DNA of 64,000 bases from Edaphobacter modestus (GTDB lineage Bacteria > Acidobacteriota > Terriglobia > Terriglobales > Acidobacteriaceae): contig NZ_SHKW01000001.1 of assembly GCF_004217555.1 (NCBI RefSeq), positions 2,046,001 through 2,110,000 of the forward strand, in the 5' to 3' direction. Below are positions 16,997 through 23,455 of this stretch, piece by piece. The first letter of the stretch is position 1, and every line of letters begins with the position of its first letter. The notes below the pieces were generated by a model. It was not told the origin of the DNA and searched no databases. It worked only from the letters and a program-made list of their open reading frames with translations. Made by a program: the position numbers and the translations under genes.

Positions 16997-18340
16997 TTAG
17001 GACCCGCTGGCGATCAAAGGATGAACAACCTGCCGGGAGCATTCCTGGTGCGGCGAGGCATGGTGGTTTACGACGAGGACCGAACCGCGCTGCCCGGTCA
17101 GGTAAGTCCAGAGCCATTGCACCAGAACGGCCAAACGAAGGCTGGAATGGGCTAAGTAGGCAATGTGAATCGCTGCCCAAGGCAGCCATCCCAGCAATCC
17201 GCTCAGCTGCACCTTACGGCACTGCAGAACGGCGAAGTTTCCTCCGGCGACTGCCATGTTGCCCTTATCGAAATAGCGGAAGGGCGCCATATCCTTGCGC
17301 CCAATCACACGGCGGTGAATGAGCTTGCCGGCATACCGTCCCTGCTGCATCGCCACCTGGGCAACACCGGGAAGCGGTTTTCCATCCTGATTGAGGGAAG
17401 CCGTGTCTCCAATGACGAAGACTTCCGGATATCCCGCCATCGTCAAATCCTGCTGAATGTGGACGCGACCTGCTCGGTCCGTCTCCGCGTTCAGCCATTT
17501 GCCAGCGGGGGAAGCGGCAACCCCGGCAGTCCAGATGACTGTCTTGCTGATGATCCGTTCACCGCCAACAACCACTCCATCGCCATCGATACTCTCGATG
17601 CCGTGCCCCAGGCGGACTTCAACGCCTAGCCCTTCTAGATGCTTCTGCGCCTTTTTGGAGAGAGCCTCGGAGAAAGGACCAAGGATCCGGTTTGCTTGAT
17701 CAACAAGGATAATTCTTGCCGATTGTGGATTGATCCTTCGGAAGGAGGACTTTAGCGTCCGGCGTACAAGTGTAGCCATCGCCCCGGCCATTTCAACGCC
17801 GGTCGGTCCGGCCCCCACGAGAACAAACGTCAGCAGTCCCTTCTTGACTGGATCTTCTGTGGTTTCGGCCTGTTCGAAGGCGCGAAGGATCCGATTGCGA
17901 ATCGCCAGCGCATCCGCCACGCTCTTCAGGCCCGGCGCATGCTTTTCATATTCGTCCTTTCCGAAATAGCTATGCCGTGCTCCGGTAGCGAGAATCAAAT
18001 AGTCGTATGTAACGACTTCTCTAGTCCCATCGGAAAGATCAACGGTAACATTGCGCTCAGCCTTGTCGACACTTGTGACTTCGCCGAGAGTCACGCTCAC
18101 GTTGGCCTGCTTGCGTAGAATTCCCCGTATTGGTGAGGCTATGTCCCCAGGGGGCAGCACGGACGTGGCAACCTGATAAAGCAGTGGCTGAAATAAATGA
18201 TGGTTAGTGCGGTCAATCAAAGTGATGCGTACCGGCGCATCTCGGAGGGCTTTCGCGGCCGCAACACCGCCAAAGCCTCCGCCAACGATAACCACATGTG
18301 GATCCTTCGCATACATGAGTCCTTGCCTCGCCTGTGTCAT
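16997..18340 (-). CDS. ndh: Type II NADH:quinone oxidoreductase
   Basis: A 447-residue single-subunit flavoprotein dehydrogenase that passes electrons from NADH to quinone without pumping protons. The FAD-binding motif VIVGGGFGGVAAAKAL is at about 16-31 and the NAD-binding motif FVLVGAGPTGVEMAGAMA at about 165. The C-terminal part carries hydrophobic/aromatic segments expected for membrane attachment. Its ATG overlaps the malic enzyme stop by four bases (ATGA), so the two are coupled: malic enzyme produces the NADH that this enzyme oxidises. Confidence 0.93.
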   Translation of the reverse strand: MTQARQGLMYAKDPHVVIVGGGFGGVAAAKALRDAPVRITLIDRTNHHLFQPLLYQVATSVLPPGDIASPIRGILRKQANVSVTLGEVTSVDKAERNVTVDLSDGTREVVTYDYLILATGARHSYFGKDEYEKHAPGLKSVADALAIRNRILRAFEQAETTEDPVKKGLLTFVLVGAGPTGVEMAGAMATLVRRTLKSSFRRINPQSARIILVDQANRILGPFSEALSKKAQKHLEGLGVEVRLGHGIESIDGDGVVVGGERIISKTVIWTAGVAASPAGKWLNAETDRAGRVHIQQDLTMAGYPEVFVIGDTASLNQDGKPLPGVAQVAMQQGRYAGKLIHRRVIGRKDMAPFRYFDKGNMAVAGGNFAVLQCRKVQLSGLLGWLPWAAIHIAYLAHSSLRLAVLVQWLWTYLTGQRGSVLVVNHHASPHQECSRQVVHPLIASGS

Positions 18341-20073
18341 TGAGTCACCTCCACTTCTTCCAACAAATCAACATCCGACAAATCAACATCCGAATATTCA
18401 GGACTCCATTGGCAGCTAATTACGTTGCTTCGGAGAGCTGCCAGATTTGTCTTGGGAGCAAGCCCCTCATTTTGTGCTGCCACGCCAACCGCGACCGCCA
18501 TCTCAACGGCCACCTTGCGAACATCCGTCAGTACGGGCAACAGTGGAGCAGTTGGGTTCTTGAGTGCAGGAGAGTTCTCCGCCAACGCATGAGCTGCGGC
18601 CAGCAGCATTCCATCTGTGACTCTGGTTGCCCCGGACGCTACAAGCCCCAGTCCAACAGCCGGGAAGATATAGACGTTGTTGCATTGCGCGATGAAGATG
18701 TCGGATTCGCCATGCTTCACCGGCGGGAAGGGAGAACCCGTTGCTACCAGGGCCTTGCCGTCGGTCCATCGGATAAGGTCATCGGGCTTTGCTTCGGCCT
18801 TGCTCGTGGGGTTGGAAAGGGGCAGGATGATCGGACGCGCGACCTTACGGGCCATCTCACGGACGATTGCTTCTGTGAAAGCGCCGCCCACCGTGGAGAA
18901 GCCGAGCAGAACATTCGCGTCGACCTTCCCAATCACGTCGGCGAGACCAATGGTGCCGTTGAACGTCTTTGGCCAATCCGCCACCGACTCCGCATTCTGT
19001 GCATAAACCTGTTGCTCAGCGCTCAGATCGGCACGTTTGCTGTGCAGCAGTCCGTCCTTATCGACGATCCAGAATTGGCTGCGGGCCTGCTCCTCAGAGA
19101 GCCCTTCCACGACCAATGCCTGGCGCAAGTAATCAGCAACGCCGATGCTTGCAGATCCAGCTCCCAGGAACACGAACTTCTGATCCTTCAAACTCCCTCC
19201 CGAAACCCGGAGGGCGCTCAGAACAACGCCAAGCGCAACGGCTGCGGTTCCTTGGATATCGTCGTTGAAGGTCAGCAGCTCGTCACGATAGTGCTGCAGG
19301 ATGGGACGGGCATGCGGCGTCGCGAAATCTTCCCATTGCAGGCAGGTGTTAGGTAGCTCGTCCTTCACCGCTTCTACGAATTGGTCGATGAACTCGTCGT
19401 AGTCCTTACCCGTGATGCGCTCGTGCCGCCAACCGAGATACTCCGGATCGTTCAGCAGTTCCTGATTGTTGGTCCCAACATCCAGTACGATAGGCAGGGT
19501 CCGTGCTGGATCGATACCGCCAATCAGCGTATACAGCGCGAGCTTGCCGATCGGAATACCAAGGCCACCGACACCTTGATCGCCAATTCCCAGAATCCGT
19601 TCGCCATCCGTTACAACAACGACGTCCACTTCCCTGTTGGGGCGGCTGCGCAAGAGCTCTGGAATACGATCCCGCAAGGGATAAGAAATGAAGAGGCCAC
19701 GCGGCCGCCTATAAATCTTACTAAAGAGCTGGCACCCCTGAGCAACAGTAGGCGTATAGACGATCGGCATCATTTCATCGATGTGGTCTAGTACCAGACG
19801 GTAGAAAAGAACCTCATTAGTATCTTGCAGCTGGCGCAGATAGATGTGGCGTTCAAGGTCATCCTGCTTCCTCAGATAGGCCTGATAAGCGCGATTGACC
19901 TGATCGTCCAATGTCTCAACATGCAACGGCAGCAAGCCATGCAAGTCGAATCTGGTGCGTTCGTCATAGGTGAAGGCTGTGCCTTTATTCAGTGTTGGAG
20001 TGGTGACCAGTGACATTCTTTGTTCTCCTGTCGTTGTAGTTCCTTTTTGTGTTGGCTCTGTATAACGCGGCAT
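18337..20073 (-). CDS. maeA: NAD-type malic enzyme
   Basis: A 578-residue malate dehydrogenase (oxaloacetate-decarboxylating), making pyruvate, CO2 and reduced nicotinamide. Motifs: catalytic Tyr106 in PIVYTPTVAQGCQ, GERILGIGDQG, FNDDIQGTAAVALG (metal site) and the nucleotide-binding FLGAGSASIGVA. Length fits the large NAD-linked (MaeA/SfcA) class. AGGAG seven bases before the ATG at 20073 supports the start. It lies 58 bases after alsS and overlaps ndh by four bases. Confidence 0.95.
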   Translation of the reverse strand: MPRYTEPTQKGTTTTGEQRMSLVTTPTLNKGTAFTYDERTRFDLHGLLPLHVETLDDQVNRAYQAYLRKQDDLERHIYLRQLQDTNEVLFYRLVLDHIDEMMPIVYTPTVAQGCQLFSKIYRRPRGLFISYPLRDRIPELLRSRPNREVDVVVVTDGERILGIGDQGVGGLGIPIGKLALYTLIGGIDPARTLPIVLDVGTNNQELLNDPEYLGWRHERITGKDYDEFIDQFVEAVKDELPNTCLQWEDFATPHARPILQHYRDELLTFNDDIQGTAAVALGVVLSALRVSGGSLKDQKFVFLGAGSASIGVADYLRQALVVEGLSEEQARSQFWIVDKDGLLHSKRADLSAEQQVYAQNAESVADWPKTFNGTIGLADVIGKVDANVLLGFSTVGGAFTEAIVREMARKVARPIILPLSNPTSKAEAKPDDLIRWTDGKALVATGSPFPPVKHGESDIFIAQCNNVYIFPAVGLGLVASGATRVTDGMLLAAAHALAENSPALKNPTAPLLPVLTDVRKVAVEMAVAVGVAAQNEGLAPKTNLAALRSNVISCQWSPEYSDVDLSDVDLLEEVEVTQ

Positions 20074-20131: not shown

Positions 20132-21832
20132 TTAGTTGAGAACCCCTGGATGCATCATCTCCATTAGGTTGTGGTTATCGCGATAGTCCACGGGAATGCC
20201 GACCACCACCGGACCTTCCAAAGCCAGCGCTTTTTTGAGCGTGGGAGCAATCTCTTCCGGACGGTGGATCATCATTCCGTGCGCACCACACGCCTTGGCA
20301 ATGCCGACAACGTCTACGGGGCCGAATTCCACGGCCGCATCACGGCCGTACTTGGCGATCTGCTGAAAACGAACCATGTCGTAGTGGCCATCCATCCAGA
20401 CAATGTGGACGAGGTTGCACTTCAGTCGCACCGCCGTCTCCAGTTCCATCGACGAGAACATAAATCCGCCATCGCCCGAGATTGAAATGACCTTCTCGCT
20501 GGGACGAACCAGTGAGGCCGCAATCGCCCAGGGCAGGCCTACGCCCATCGTCTGCTGTCCGTTGGTGATCAGCACCTGCCGCGAACGGAAGCTGTACAGA
20601 TAACGCGCCAGCCAGATATGGAATGAACCCATGTCTAGGCATAACGTTATGTCATCGCTCATGATTCCCTGAAGCTCATGGACAATTCGCATCGGATGAA
20701 TGGGAGTGCCATTGAGCATTTTGGCGCGTTCCGAAAACACGCCTCGCTCCATAGCGATTTCGCTGAGGATTGCGCTATTGCCCTGGCGTTCGGTCACCTC
20801 AACCAGAGACGTAAGTCGTCCCAGGATCGCCTTGATGTTCCCGATCAACTCGACTGCCGGCTTGTAATTCTTGTCTGCATCCGGACGGACAACATCGATA
20901 TGAATGACATTACCCTTCCGTCCGCGGTTCCAGAGCACGGCGTCATACTCGATCGGGTCATAGCCCACGGTGATCACCAAGTCGGAGGCATCAAGGAGTC
21001 GATCCCCTGGCTGGTTGTGAAAGAGACCAACACGACCACCGAATTGATCAAAGAGGTCATGTGATACAGCGCCTGCAGCTTGATAGGTGTTTACAACCGG
21101 CAAGCCAGTCTTTCTCAGGAAGAGGTGGATGGCCTCTGCCGTCTCCGGCTGGCTAGCAAGCATACCCAGCAACACCACCGGGTTCTGCGCCTTGTTGATG
21201 CGGGCCGCAGCCTCGCCCATCTCGTGATCGTCGGCGGCGCCCAAAGCTTCGGGCTTTACCGGGGTGAGCACCTCACCCTTCGCCTCAGCGGCCATGATGT
21301 CCATGGGCAGACTAATGAAGGAGGCCCCGGGCCGTCCCGACTCTGCAGCACGAAAGGCGTCAGCCACTACTTCAGAGATCGCCTCACTGGAGTTGACCTC
21401 GGCGCTGTACTTGGTGACGGGCTTGAAGATCGAAACCGTGTCCATCGCCTGATGCACACGCTTGAGCCGGTTGGCCACAGTCGTTGCTCCGCCCAACGCA
21501 ACCACCGGATCCCCCTCCGACGTCGCGGTGGCTAGACCCGTCACCAGATTCGAGCAGCCAGGCCCGGAGGTGCCGATGCATACGCCAGCCTTGCCGGTCA
21601 TACGCCCGATACCAGCGGCAATAAAGGCTGCATTCTGCTCGTGACGGCACAGGATGGTCTTGATCTTCGAATCGACTAAGGTGTCGAATAGCTTGTCAAT
21701 CTTTGCTCCAGGAATACCGAAGACATACTCCACGCCTTGGGACTCAAGGTTCTTTACGAGGAGCTCGGCTCCGGTTTGGACGGCGGCGGCTGGGTTGGTC
21801 TGGTTTGTCGCTCGCTTCTCGCTCGTGCTCAT
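20132..21832 (-). CDS. alsS: Catabolic acetolactate synthase
   Basis: A 566-residue ThDP-dependent enzyme that condenses two pyruvates into acetolactate with release of CO2. The ThDP-activating Glu65 is in CRHEQNAAF, and the diphosphate-binding motif GDGGFMFSSMELETAVRL lies near residue 455. It is of the AlsS/BudB catabolic type: there is no regulatory subunit gene next to it, and acetolactate decarboxylase lies immediately upstream. The start ATG is one base after the alsD stop. Working with malic enzyme pyruvate, it feeds acetoin formation. Confidence 0.94.
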   Translation of the reverse strand: MSTSEKRATNQTNPAAAVQTGAELLVKNLESQGVEYVFGIPGAKIDKLFDTLVDSKIKTILCRHEQNAAFIAAGIGRMTGKAGVCIGTSGPGCSNLVTGLATATSEGDPVVALGGATTVANRLKRVHQAMDTVSIFKPVTKYSAEVNSSEAISEVVADAFRAAESGRPGASFISLPMDIMAAEAKGEVLTPVKPEALGAADDHEMGEAAARINKAQNPVVLLGMLASQPETAEAIHLFLRKTGLPVVNTYQAAGAVSHDLFDQFGGRVGLFHNQPGDRLLDASDLVITVGYDPIEYDAVLWNRGRKGNVIHIDVVRPDADKNYKPAVELIGNIKAILGRLTSLVEVTERQGNSAILSEIAMERGVFSERAKMLNGTPIHPMRIVHELQGIMSDDITLCLDMGSFHIWLARYLYSFRSRQVLITNGQQTMGVGLPWAIAASLVRPSEKVISISGDGGFMFSSMELETAVRLKCNLVHIVWMDGHYDMVRFQQIAKYGRDAAVEFGPVDVVGIAKACGAHGMMIHRPEEIAPTLKKALALEGPVVVGIPVDYRDNHNLMEMMHPGVLN

Positions 21833-21833
21833 G

Positions 21834-22679
21834 TTATTTCACCCTTTCTGGTTGGAATGTCTCTGCCTTCTCAAGATCTGCGGTGGGATCTCGACGCAAA
21901 TCTGCATCGAGGAATGCCTTGGTCTCAGGCAACACAAGACGAAACTTCGTTGCGCGCTGGAGTTCAAGAGTGAGATTGCTCCCGTCGCACTCCAGTAGAT
22001 GTCCTCCGCCAGTGCGATCCTCCGTTATGAAATGGAGGTGGTATCCCGGAATGCTGAGAGTCTTCACATAGGACGGCGACCAAAAGCCGACGAGGGATCC
22101 TCGCACATCGTGAAACTCAAATTCGGGCTGAACAGCAGCGGCGTTGATCAACTTCGTACCCGGCTTCATGCGGCATAGGGCACGCGTGCGGACATGGTTA
22201 AATCGTCCCTCGATACGAATCGAGAAGAAGTAATTATCCGTGGGCCTCAAACGATCCAATGCAGCCAGCAAGCTATCAAGGCCAGTACATTCCTTTAGCA
22301 GAACTTGGATATCAGGACTAAATCTTGCGACTGTGGCAAAAGGCGTCTGAACCTCATCGGAGACTTCATTGACAGAGCCATCAGAGCGCACCTGGAAGAC
22401 ATGGCCGTCAACGACCACCATTTCGCCATCCAAATGTTCAAAAGTGCCCAGTCCAAGGTTGCCGTACTTTTTGAGCGATCCGCAGTCTGCTGCTCCATCC
22501 GCCACACCTTCGACTAGAGCCGCTGAGGTCGAGATTTGATACAGCGCGTCGCGCGTGTTTTCGATGTAGTCGATGATGGCGTTTTGAATGATCTGTTCAG
22601 GCTCTTGGCAGCTGTGCTGGGCATGAAGCTCAAGGACTTGGAATAGATCAGGTGGAATCGTGAAATTTGGTTGCAGCAC
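21834..22679 (-). CDS. alsD: Acetolactate decarboxylase with an N-terminal RHH-like extension
   Basis: A 281-residue protein. Residues from about 46 to the end are a full acetolactate decarboxylase (acetolactate to acetoin plus CO2), with zinc ligands His214, His216 and His227 in GYHLHFITEDRTGGGHLLE. Residues 1-45 are an extra module: a short strand (FTIPPDL), helix (LFQVLELHAQHSC) and helix (PEQIIQNAIIDYIENTRD), which follows the ribbon-helix-helix DNA-binding pattern. If real, the enzyme could regulate its own operon. The start is a GTG at 22679 with AGGAG 11 bases upstream; no in-frame ATG replaces it near the enzyme domain. It is the first gene of the alsD-alsS-maeA-ndh-fumC series. Confidence 0.92.
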   Translation of the reverse strand: MLQPNFTIPPDLFQVLELHAQHSCQEPEQIIQNAIIDYIENTRDALYQISTSAALVEGVADGAADCGSLKKYGNLGLGTFEHLDGEMVVVDGHVFQVRSDGSVNEVSDEVQTPFATVARFSPDIQVLLKECTGLDSLLAALDRLRPTDNYFFSIRIEGRFNHVRTRALCRMKPGTKLINAAAVQPEFEFHDVRGSLVGFWSPSYVKTLSIPGYHLHFITEDRTGGGHLLECDGSNLTLELQRATKFRLVLPETKAFLDADLRRDPTADLEKAETFQPERVK

Positions 22680-22822
22680 TTGGGATACCGCTCCTTTTCT
22701 TTATTGCGTCACACAGGTAATAAGACGCGATAGCCGAAGCACACTAAGGGGGGTGGCTTGCTGCCAAGGGGGGATTCTTGCCAATTTCTATAGTCTGACC
22801 ACCAGAGCTCCAAGTGAACTAG

Positions 22823-23309
22823 GGTGTGTTCGCACTAGGCGCTAGCTGTCTTTCCCCGATGGAACTGACAGAAGCGCAGTACGAATCGGATAAAGAGCGC
22901 GTTGCCAGTGCAGCGCGGCAAACGTAAGTTTGAGCAACCCGCAAGTGCTGAATGCAGTGCTATATGTGGCCGAACAAGGCTGCAAATGGCGCGGGCTGCC
23001 GAAGCAGTTCGGCCGCCGGCTCGACCTCGATCAAGGTGATCCGGACGGTACGGGCGCTTTAGAAAAACGGCCTCAGCAACTCGTGCTTGATCTCGGCGTG
23101 GCTCCGGTGGTTCCACTCAATCCAACCGCTAGGAACCCTGGGACTACGACCGCGCCCTCTACAAGAAGAAAGATGAGATCGAGAGGCTCTTTCGAGGCTC
23201 AAGGGCTTCCGCAGCATCTTTCTCCAGCTTCGAGAAACTCGTTGTTCTCTTCCTCGGCTTACTCAACTTCGCCCGCATCATCGAAGCACCGCGCTAGTGC
23301 GAACATGCC
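22823..23309 (+). mobile_element. Decayed IS5-family element with intact ends
   Basis: A 487-base element flanked on both sides by CTAG (22819-22822 and 23310-23313), the expected target duplication. Its ends are near-perfect inverted repeats, GGTGTGTTCGCACTAG on the left and the complement of GGGCATGTTCGCACTAG on the right. The interior is a shortened, frameshifted transposase. It would need a transposase supplied elsewhere to move. Confidence 0.85.
22859..23296 (+). pseudogene. IS5-type transposase remnant
   Basis: Begins MELTEAQYESDKE and reaches a stop after 22 codons. The next frame continues VSLSNPQVLNAVLYVAEQGCKWRGLPKQFG, a hallmark of IS5-group transposases (DUF4096). After a further shift it reads PWDYDRALYKKKDEIERLFR, then FEKLVVLFLGLLNFARIIEAPR before TAG. 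The middle of the protein, with most of the DDE catalytic core, is deleted, and at least two frameshifts are present. Confidence 0.85.
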
Positions 23310-23455
23310 CTAGCTTGTGTGCAGGTTAGAAATTCGCAAGCAATCCCCCGCTGGCAGCAATTCTCCACCCCTAGTATGCCTTGGCTATTGAATCTGATCG
23401 TATAAAGCAGCTTTTCGCTGGAAAGCAGCGACAGAAGAGGAAGCTCTCCCGACCT

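Follow-up and report, generated by a model that had tools for sequence, protein, structure and literature searches.

A ribbon-helix-helix-fold head on an acetolactate decarboxylase of Edaphobacter modestus, possibly retained for dimerisation rather than for DNA reading

The acetolactate decarboxylase (ALDC) encoded in the 64,000-nucleotide stretch of Edaphobacter modestus DNA analysed herein (the window) carries an N-terminal extension which, judging from profile comparisons of its family, belongs to the ribbon-helix-helix (RHH) fold, and the observation that its N-terminus is RHH-like was thus confirmed. As for the function of this head, we favor, with a probability of roughly one half, the reading that it is a kept dimerisation module in which DNA reading has been lost, and that the protein is likely no repressor.

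The ALDC gene and its enzyme domain

The gene (21834-22679, minus strand) encodes 281 aa from a GTG start, comprising a complete ALDC and the N-terminal extension, and re-reading of the sequence showed that the open reading frame, the coordinates, and the residues quoted in the original prediction were all correct. The catalytic domain was matched in full length both by Pfam AAL_decarboxy (PF03306; residues 46-262, 21894-22544, minus strand; E 4.5e-76, 255.4 bits against a cut-off of 25) and by NCBIfam TIGR01252 (residues 45-266; 229.5 bits against a cut-off of 180.65). Because the enzyme domain begins at residue 46 or 45 according to these models, residues 1-45 are extra to the enzyme, just as had been predicted. 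Residues E86, R166, H214, H216, and H227, which we take to be the metal/active-site residues of ALDC (GE, R, HxH, and H motifs), all fall in invariant columns of a 12-sequence alignment (A1), and the best solved-structure match of the AlphaFold2 model of the whole protein was 4bt3 (TMt 0.94).

The sequence AAGGAG (22691-22696, minus strand), a likely ribosome-binding site, lies 11 nt upstream of the GTG at 22679, and the next in-frame ATG, GTG, or TTG is found 58 codons downstream, already within the enzyme domain. Given this motif ahead of the GTG and the lack of an alternative ATG, GTG, or TTG before the enzyme domain, the extension is very probably translated. A signal peptide, which by eye is present in other ALDCs (L056 and L026), was absent here and was rejected for the extension of the window protein.

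Fold of the N-terminal head

The RHH-fold domain was assigned to residues 1-43 (22551-22679, minus strand), with a strand at about residues 3-8, inferred from the alignment alone, and two helices (residues 10-23 and 27-42) taken from the AlphaFold2 model; the assignment draws on hhalign, profile matches in the PDB, and AlphaFold2. When the 23 extensions of an almost gapless alignment (A3) were compared by hhalign with 30 RHH_1 proteins, this one comparison gave a probability of 95.6 and an E value of 1.3e-8, with a score of 35.05 over 40 ungapped columns. The extension profile scored 10.14 when reversed, and the highest score among 200 column shuffles was 15.41; since none of these reached 35.05, a chance resemblance of the extensions to RHH_1 was rejected. 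In a PDB profile search with the same 23 extensions, RHH proteins aligned in register made up 5 of the 13 sequences listed, namely 9kkd (E 0.0049), AvtR (0.0054), CopG (0.12 and 0.13), and VapB26 (0.32), of which AvtR (4hv0) and VapB26 are presumed by us to be RHH proteins. The list also contained a TAL effector (0.0022), a designed repeat protein (0.0075), and a microcystin synthetase (0.022), which are chance rows of similar rank; the E values of the former two are sums over repeats with no single stretch significant, and for the microcystin synthetase one stretch passes.

Single sequences gave fainter signals. The window N-terminus alone showed no RHH match in Pfam or NCBIfam, the only match being DUF6635 at E 0.069. 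Scanned singly against Pfam, the 23 extensions yielded weak matches (best E 0.032), mostly to RHH-type families, namely PSK_trans_fac (four; assumed here to be of the RHH type), RHH_5 (two), RHH_3, Antitox_RHH, DUF7054, and IL28A (one each), while NCBIfam returned five families with one member each, including a RelB-like antitoxin at 0.12. A relative from Ancylobacter, described below, narrowly exceeded the Pfam RHH_1 cut-off (20.8 versus 20.5 bits) over residues 3-39, and phmmer found no match in the PDB for its N-terminus. The profile search for RHH_1 proposed along with the original prediction thus gave no match with the window N-terminus by itself, an in-register alignment with the family profile, and a narrow pass with the Ancylobacter relative.

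In the AlphaFold2 monomer of the window ALDC, both helices were predicted with pLDDT of about 80, sitting where the RHH fold requires them, and the strand was not formed; RHH proteins complete the strand only as dimers. Modeled alone, residues 1-58 gave helices only, at a mean pLDDT of 67.6, and searches of solved structures with this model returned no significant match and no RHH titles among the 40 and 50 matches listed. Because a dimer is expected, a model of one chain at such low confidence does not decide which fold the head adopts. Since the family profile matches RHH_1 and the Ancylobacter relative narrowly passes the RHH_1 cut-off, the predicted RHH character of the N-terminus was borne out, in agreement with the positions of the modeled helices.

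Cysteines are frequent in the heads of RHH-fused ALDCs (RHH-ALDCs), occurring at position 6 in 10 of 22 and at position 38 in 8 of 22, and a redox role for them is imaginable.

Relatives and origin of RHH-ALDCs

Among 398 genomes belonging to the same family, 25 contained an ALDC, at 30 loci in total. This family is probably Acidobacteriaceae, since the protein of the MAG locus L001 recurs among its genomes as L042. A similar extension, judged by eye from length and pattern and with the start codons of the relatives also picked by eye, was present in 24 of these loci; five were without it (L030, L032, L036, L050, and L056), and L051 is a C-terminal fragment. The genome of the window itself holds three RHH-ALDCs. 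The 23 rows of A3 include L002 (Chromatiales) and leave out L042, which equals L001 over 150 residues, and the near copies L037 and L039; for the 25-row comparisons given below, L037 and the Ancylobacter sequence were added, with L039 and L042 still set aside.

The Ancylobacter relative is budA (WP_244451197.1) on plasmid pB of Ancylobacter polymorphus, which is 39.6% identical to the window ALDC over residues 1-273 and is followed by alsS; no relatives of this protein were found in viral contigs. A tree was computed from 37 enzyme domains, with L042, L050, L051, L052, and L053 left out; 23 of its 24 RHH-ALDC rows formed one clade (support 99/94) that included the Ancylobacter protein. The window protein has a long branch and was, with weak support, the earliest to diverge (80/27 for the others). 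It thus appears that ALDC acquired a CopG/PutA-type RHH domain at its N-terminus, probably in a single fusion event, in the line leading to the RHH-ALDCs of Acidobacteriaceae. Outside this clade, an ALDC from a Chromatiales MAG (L002, 1585-2418) also carries an RHH-like extension, which may reflect a separate fusion event, a lineage that split off early, or a resemblance arisen by chance.

The DNA-reading face of the head

In RHH regulators, alternate residues of the strand read bases, as exemplified in AmrZ by Lys18, Val20, and Arg22, where the K18A substitution weakens binding 274-fold (PMC3325190), and the ribbon is positively charged, as stated for ParD2 (PMC8251345). According to the alignment, these base-reading positions correspond to positions 3, 5, and 7 in RHH-ALDCs. 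The window protein has Q3, N5, and T7, which are polar and which, taken alone, would not forbid possible base contacts. Its head contains a single Lys/Arg in 43 residues, the lowest count among the 55 domains compared, and bears a net charge of -5.

Because RHH_1 was absent from the window's own genome at E 0.001, the RHH_1 yardstick was drawn from 120 family genomes, 94 of which showed a match at E 0.01; it consists of the top match to the Pfam model from each of 30 genomes and therefore leans to the consensus. Against this consensus-leaning set, the 25 RHH-ALDC heads held on average 3.8 Lys and Arg per domain versus 8.2, with ranges of 1-6 versus 4-13. At positions 3, 5, and 7, Lys or Arg was found in 7 of the 25 versus 21 of the 30, and Asp or Glu in 9 of the 25 (8 of 24 without L002) versus none of the 30. 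As grouping the RHH_1 rows by eye could have favored the result, every pair was taken with no grouping by hand; among pairs with helix identity of at least 50%, which are not independent of one another, RHH-ALDCs (17 pairs) agreed at positions 3, 5, and 7 in 20 of 49 cells and RHH_1 proteins (64 pairs) in 156 of 192. Within the ADC-linked and cyd-linked syntenic groups, the core was identical in 45 of 48 cells each, while the three reading positions were so in 7 and 5 of 18, respectively; the looser L001 clade gave 65 of 120 for the core and 10 of 45 for the reading positions. The family thus does not conserve basic or polar residues on the side facing the bases as RHH regulators do, and the window head, although polar at these three positions, lacks the positive charge of their ribbon.

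Concerning selection, dN/dS of the extension was below 1 in all seven computable pairs of the 11 (0.08 to 0.74; four were saturated), which argues that the extension is maintained, and it was above that of the enzyme in four of the six pairs in which both were computable. With the core conserved while positions 3, 5, and 7 vary, selection preserves the fold to a greater degree than the surface that would read DNA.

These observations point to dimerisation or assembly as the likeliest present job of the head, since the core is conserved and the reading face is not. The head would be retained for its fold: two chains would pair via their N-terminal strands to form an RHH dimer, which would tie ALDC subunits together, as a dimer or a dimer of dimers, beside the AlsS produced from the following gene, and the DNA-reading face of the ribbon would no longer be clearly under selection in this line. 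Precedent is provided by PutA, whose RHH domain mediates both dimerisation and DNA binding, and the fusion of the E. coli PutA head to a monomeric PutA led to a dimer and to gained DNA binding (PMC5293562). Dimerisation as the present job and the loss of DNA binding would be the likeliest reading, as judged from sequence conservation. Several points speak against this reading, namely the polar Q3/N5/T7, the R3/T5/H7 of the Ancylobacter protein, the modest core identity of the L001 clade (just 65/120), and the faster change of the extension than of the enzyme in four of six pairs. Moreover, ALDC domains are dimeric in crystals without such an extension, so that the need for a further dimeriser is not evident.

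The original prediction had further supposed that the enzyme is also the repressor of its operon. An RHH head on an intact ALDC was indeed found, but the repressor role was not supported in view of the charge of the head, the variability of its reading positions, a promoter in which no operator-like repeat rises convincingly above chance, and the contexts in which the gene comes after cydAB (both described below). Because the head carries almost no positive charge, the window protein is most likely no repressor; it may bind DNA. The Ancylobacter member, which keeps R3, T5, and H7 together with six Lys/Arg, would be the most promising true DNA binder among RHH-ALDCs.

Gene neighborhood

Directly after the ALDC gene, the operon continues with an acetolactate synthase (ALS) gene (20132-21832, minus strand) encoding three TPP-enzyme domains and assignable to the AlsS type by name only, a malic enzyme gene (18337-20073, minus strand; Pfam malic and Malic_M), and a gene for a flavoprotein similar to type II NADH dehydrogenase (16997-18340, minus strand; Pfam Pyr_redox_2), for which the name NDH-2 is inferred. 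Together with the flank, the gene order is ALDC, ALS, malic enzyme, NADH dehydrogenase, fumarase, and transporter. A route is known that leads from fumarate and malate via pyruvate to acetoin, and the gene order reads as this route, as far as annotation by sequence goes.

Contexts were compared for 23 RHH-ALDC loci and 4 other loci, a subset of the loci found. ALS lay downstream of the RHH-ALDC gene in 21 of the 23, whereas for headless ALDCs it was downstream in none of the four and upstream in two. In five of the 23 contexts, cydAB preceded the RHH-ALDC gene, which is therefore not the head of the cluster there; one of these is the second copy of this genome (L088, G000:C3:149001-163000, on a 228-kb contig), in which the gene follows those for Mqo, CydA, and CydB and precedes that for ALS. 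An acetoacetate-decarboxylase-like gene, so called from Pfam names, was upstream in three of the 23. Near another RHH-ALDC gene, a cyclic-nucleotide-binding domain was seen fused to a pyridine-nucleotide-disulphide oxidoreductase (L091, 3294-4961), and likewise, by eye, in L094.

Such linkage is what might be expected if the RHH-fold head were a docking surface for another protein, for instance AlsS or some partner of the membrane or of respiration, and the contexts with cydAB, Mqo, fumarase, and malic enzyme likewise point to a metabolic module. No conserved surface patch nevertheless emerged in the head, which is diverse outside its core, and the co-occurrence with ALS may merely reflect the common descent of the clade; docking is hence a conceivable but unlikely alternative to a retained dimerisation module.

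Upstream region and the repressor question

Upstream of the gene, a candidate direct repeat of 15-bp units with a 20 bp period was noticed, consisting of CAAGAATCCCCCCTT (22766-22780, minus strand), which begins 101 nt before the GTG, and CAAGCCACCCCCCTT (22746-22760, minus strand). The halves, which lie 67-101 nt ahead of the start, match in 12 of 15 positions and share CAAGN3CCCCCCTT, a pattern defined after the fact whose only exact matches in the 7.4-Mb genome are these two places. With up to one mismatch, the genome gave 17 matches versus 28 for the reversed control, none of them before the two paralogues. With 500 shuffles each, a 15-base repeat as good turned up in 5 for 150 bp and in 28 for 250 bp, the corresponding numbers being 22 and 39 for 20 bases and 246 and 338 for 12 bases, and an equally good direct repeat was present in 101 of 1277 stretches of the 64-kb window. 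Of 26 extracted upstream regions, 17 were scored for repeats: direct repeats proved rare in L031 (reached in 0 of 60 shuffles) and in the window (4 of 60), with a different sequence in L031, and the inverted repeat in each of the 17 was equalled by at least 5 of 60 shuffles. An inverted-repeat operator upstream of 22679, as the original prediction had envisaged, was therefore not found clearly above chance, and a promoter and terminator scan of 22500-23400 gave nothing above shuffles. The direct repeat at 22746-22780 is a candidate operator that is not clearly above chance and is no evidence in itself. Farther upstream (22897-23313, plus strand), an IS4/5-family transposase remnant (DUF4096, E 5.7e-7, under the cut-off) sits between the ALDC promoter and divergent RND efflux genes, the efflux assignment having been made by eye.

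By analogy with PutA, the protein could act as a trigger enzyme, in which the RHH dimer would bind an operator before alsD-alsS and repress it until acetolactate or its product in the ALDC site causes release. The architecture, an RHH fold N-terminal to an intact enzyme, is that of trifunctional PutA (PMC5293562). The polar strand residues of the window protein, the direct repeat with its sole exact genome matches, and the R3/T5/H7 strand and narrow RHH_1 pass of the Ancylobacter protein would fit as well. They are opposed by the single Lys/Arg and negative charge of the window head, base-facing residues that vary among relatives and are acidic in 9 of 25, a repeat that shuffled sequences and other stretches of the window equal, near-matches that are fewer than in the control and absent before the paralogues, and the different sequence of the repeat in L031. 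We thus consider such a trigger enzyme rather improbable for the window protein and possible chiefly in the case of the Ancylobacter protein. In a broader form, RHH-ALDC would be a second, independent PutA design acting as repressor of the acetoin operon to which it belongs, and the clade would show stages from a canonical-looking reader in Ancylobacter to a window protein without a DNA face; this proposal is tentative, and we would not expect it to hold.

A functionless leftover would accord with the long branch of the window protein, the variable surface of the head, and the extension's faster change than the enzyme in four of six pairs. It is quite unlikely, as dN/dS stayed below 1 in every computable pair, the core was nearly invariant in two groups, and the extension persists in 24 of 30 loci. 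Finally, a start within the enzyme domain, which would mean that no extension exists and which the original prediction had named as speaking against it, was rejected as hardly credible: nothing in the window favors it, and a single relative (L040) lacks ATG, GTG, or TTG before its head and has CTG aligned with the start of the others, whereas in the window no such codon lies in frame between the GTG and the enzyme domain, AAGGAG precedes the GTG, and the relatives have homologous extensions. A retained dimerisation module continues to be our preferred reading of the head.

Comparison with known systems

ALDC is a well-studied industrial enzyme. No report of an RHH-fused ALDC was found in the open-licence PubMed Central literature, searched by title and for co-mention of "acetolactate decarboxylase" and "ribbon-helix-helix". 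The RHH-ALDC clade, in which the fold persists although the residues for reading DNA change, offers a way to test whether enzymes gain or lose a transcription-factor head, and it cautions that an RHH fold on an enzyme does not mean a repressor unless the charge and the base-facing residues are checked.

The RHH domain of PutA comprises about 47 residues. Like trifunctional PutA of E. coli, RHH-ALDC is a metabolic enzyme headed by an RHH domain, and that of PutA mediates dimerisation (PMC5293562). Unlike PutA, which binds its control DNA (PMC5293562), RHH-ALDCs do not conserve basic or base-facing residues, and the enzymes are unrelated. With the solved ALDCs 4bt3, 5xne, and 6inb, the window protein shares the whole catalytic domain (34-38% identity, TMt 0.93-0.94); however, the seven sequence matches to solved ALDCs begin at query residues 37-46, and residues 1-36 are covered by none. 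The head aligns in the same register, over about 40 residues, with CopG/RHH_1 proteins (9kkd, AvtR 4hv0, and CopG 2cpg; PF01402), which are mostly stand-alone small DNA-binding proteins, but it differs from RHH_1 domains in being poorer in Lys/Arg (1-6 in RHH-ALDC heads versus 4-13, n=30). Ancylobacter budA is likewise an RHH-ALDC followed by alsS, and differs from the window ALDC in having R3, T5, and H7 and in narrowly passing the RHH_1 cut-off.
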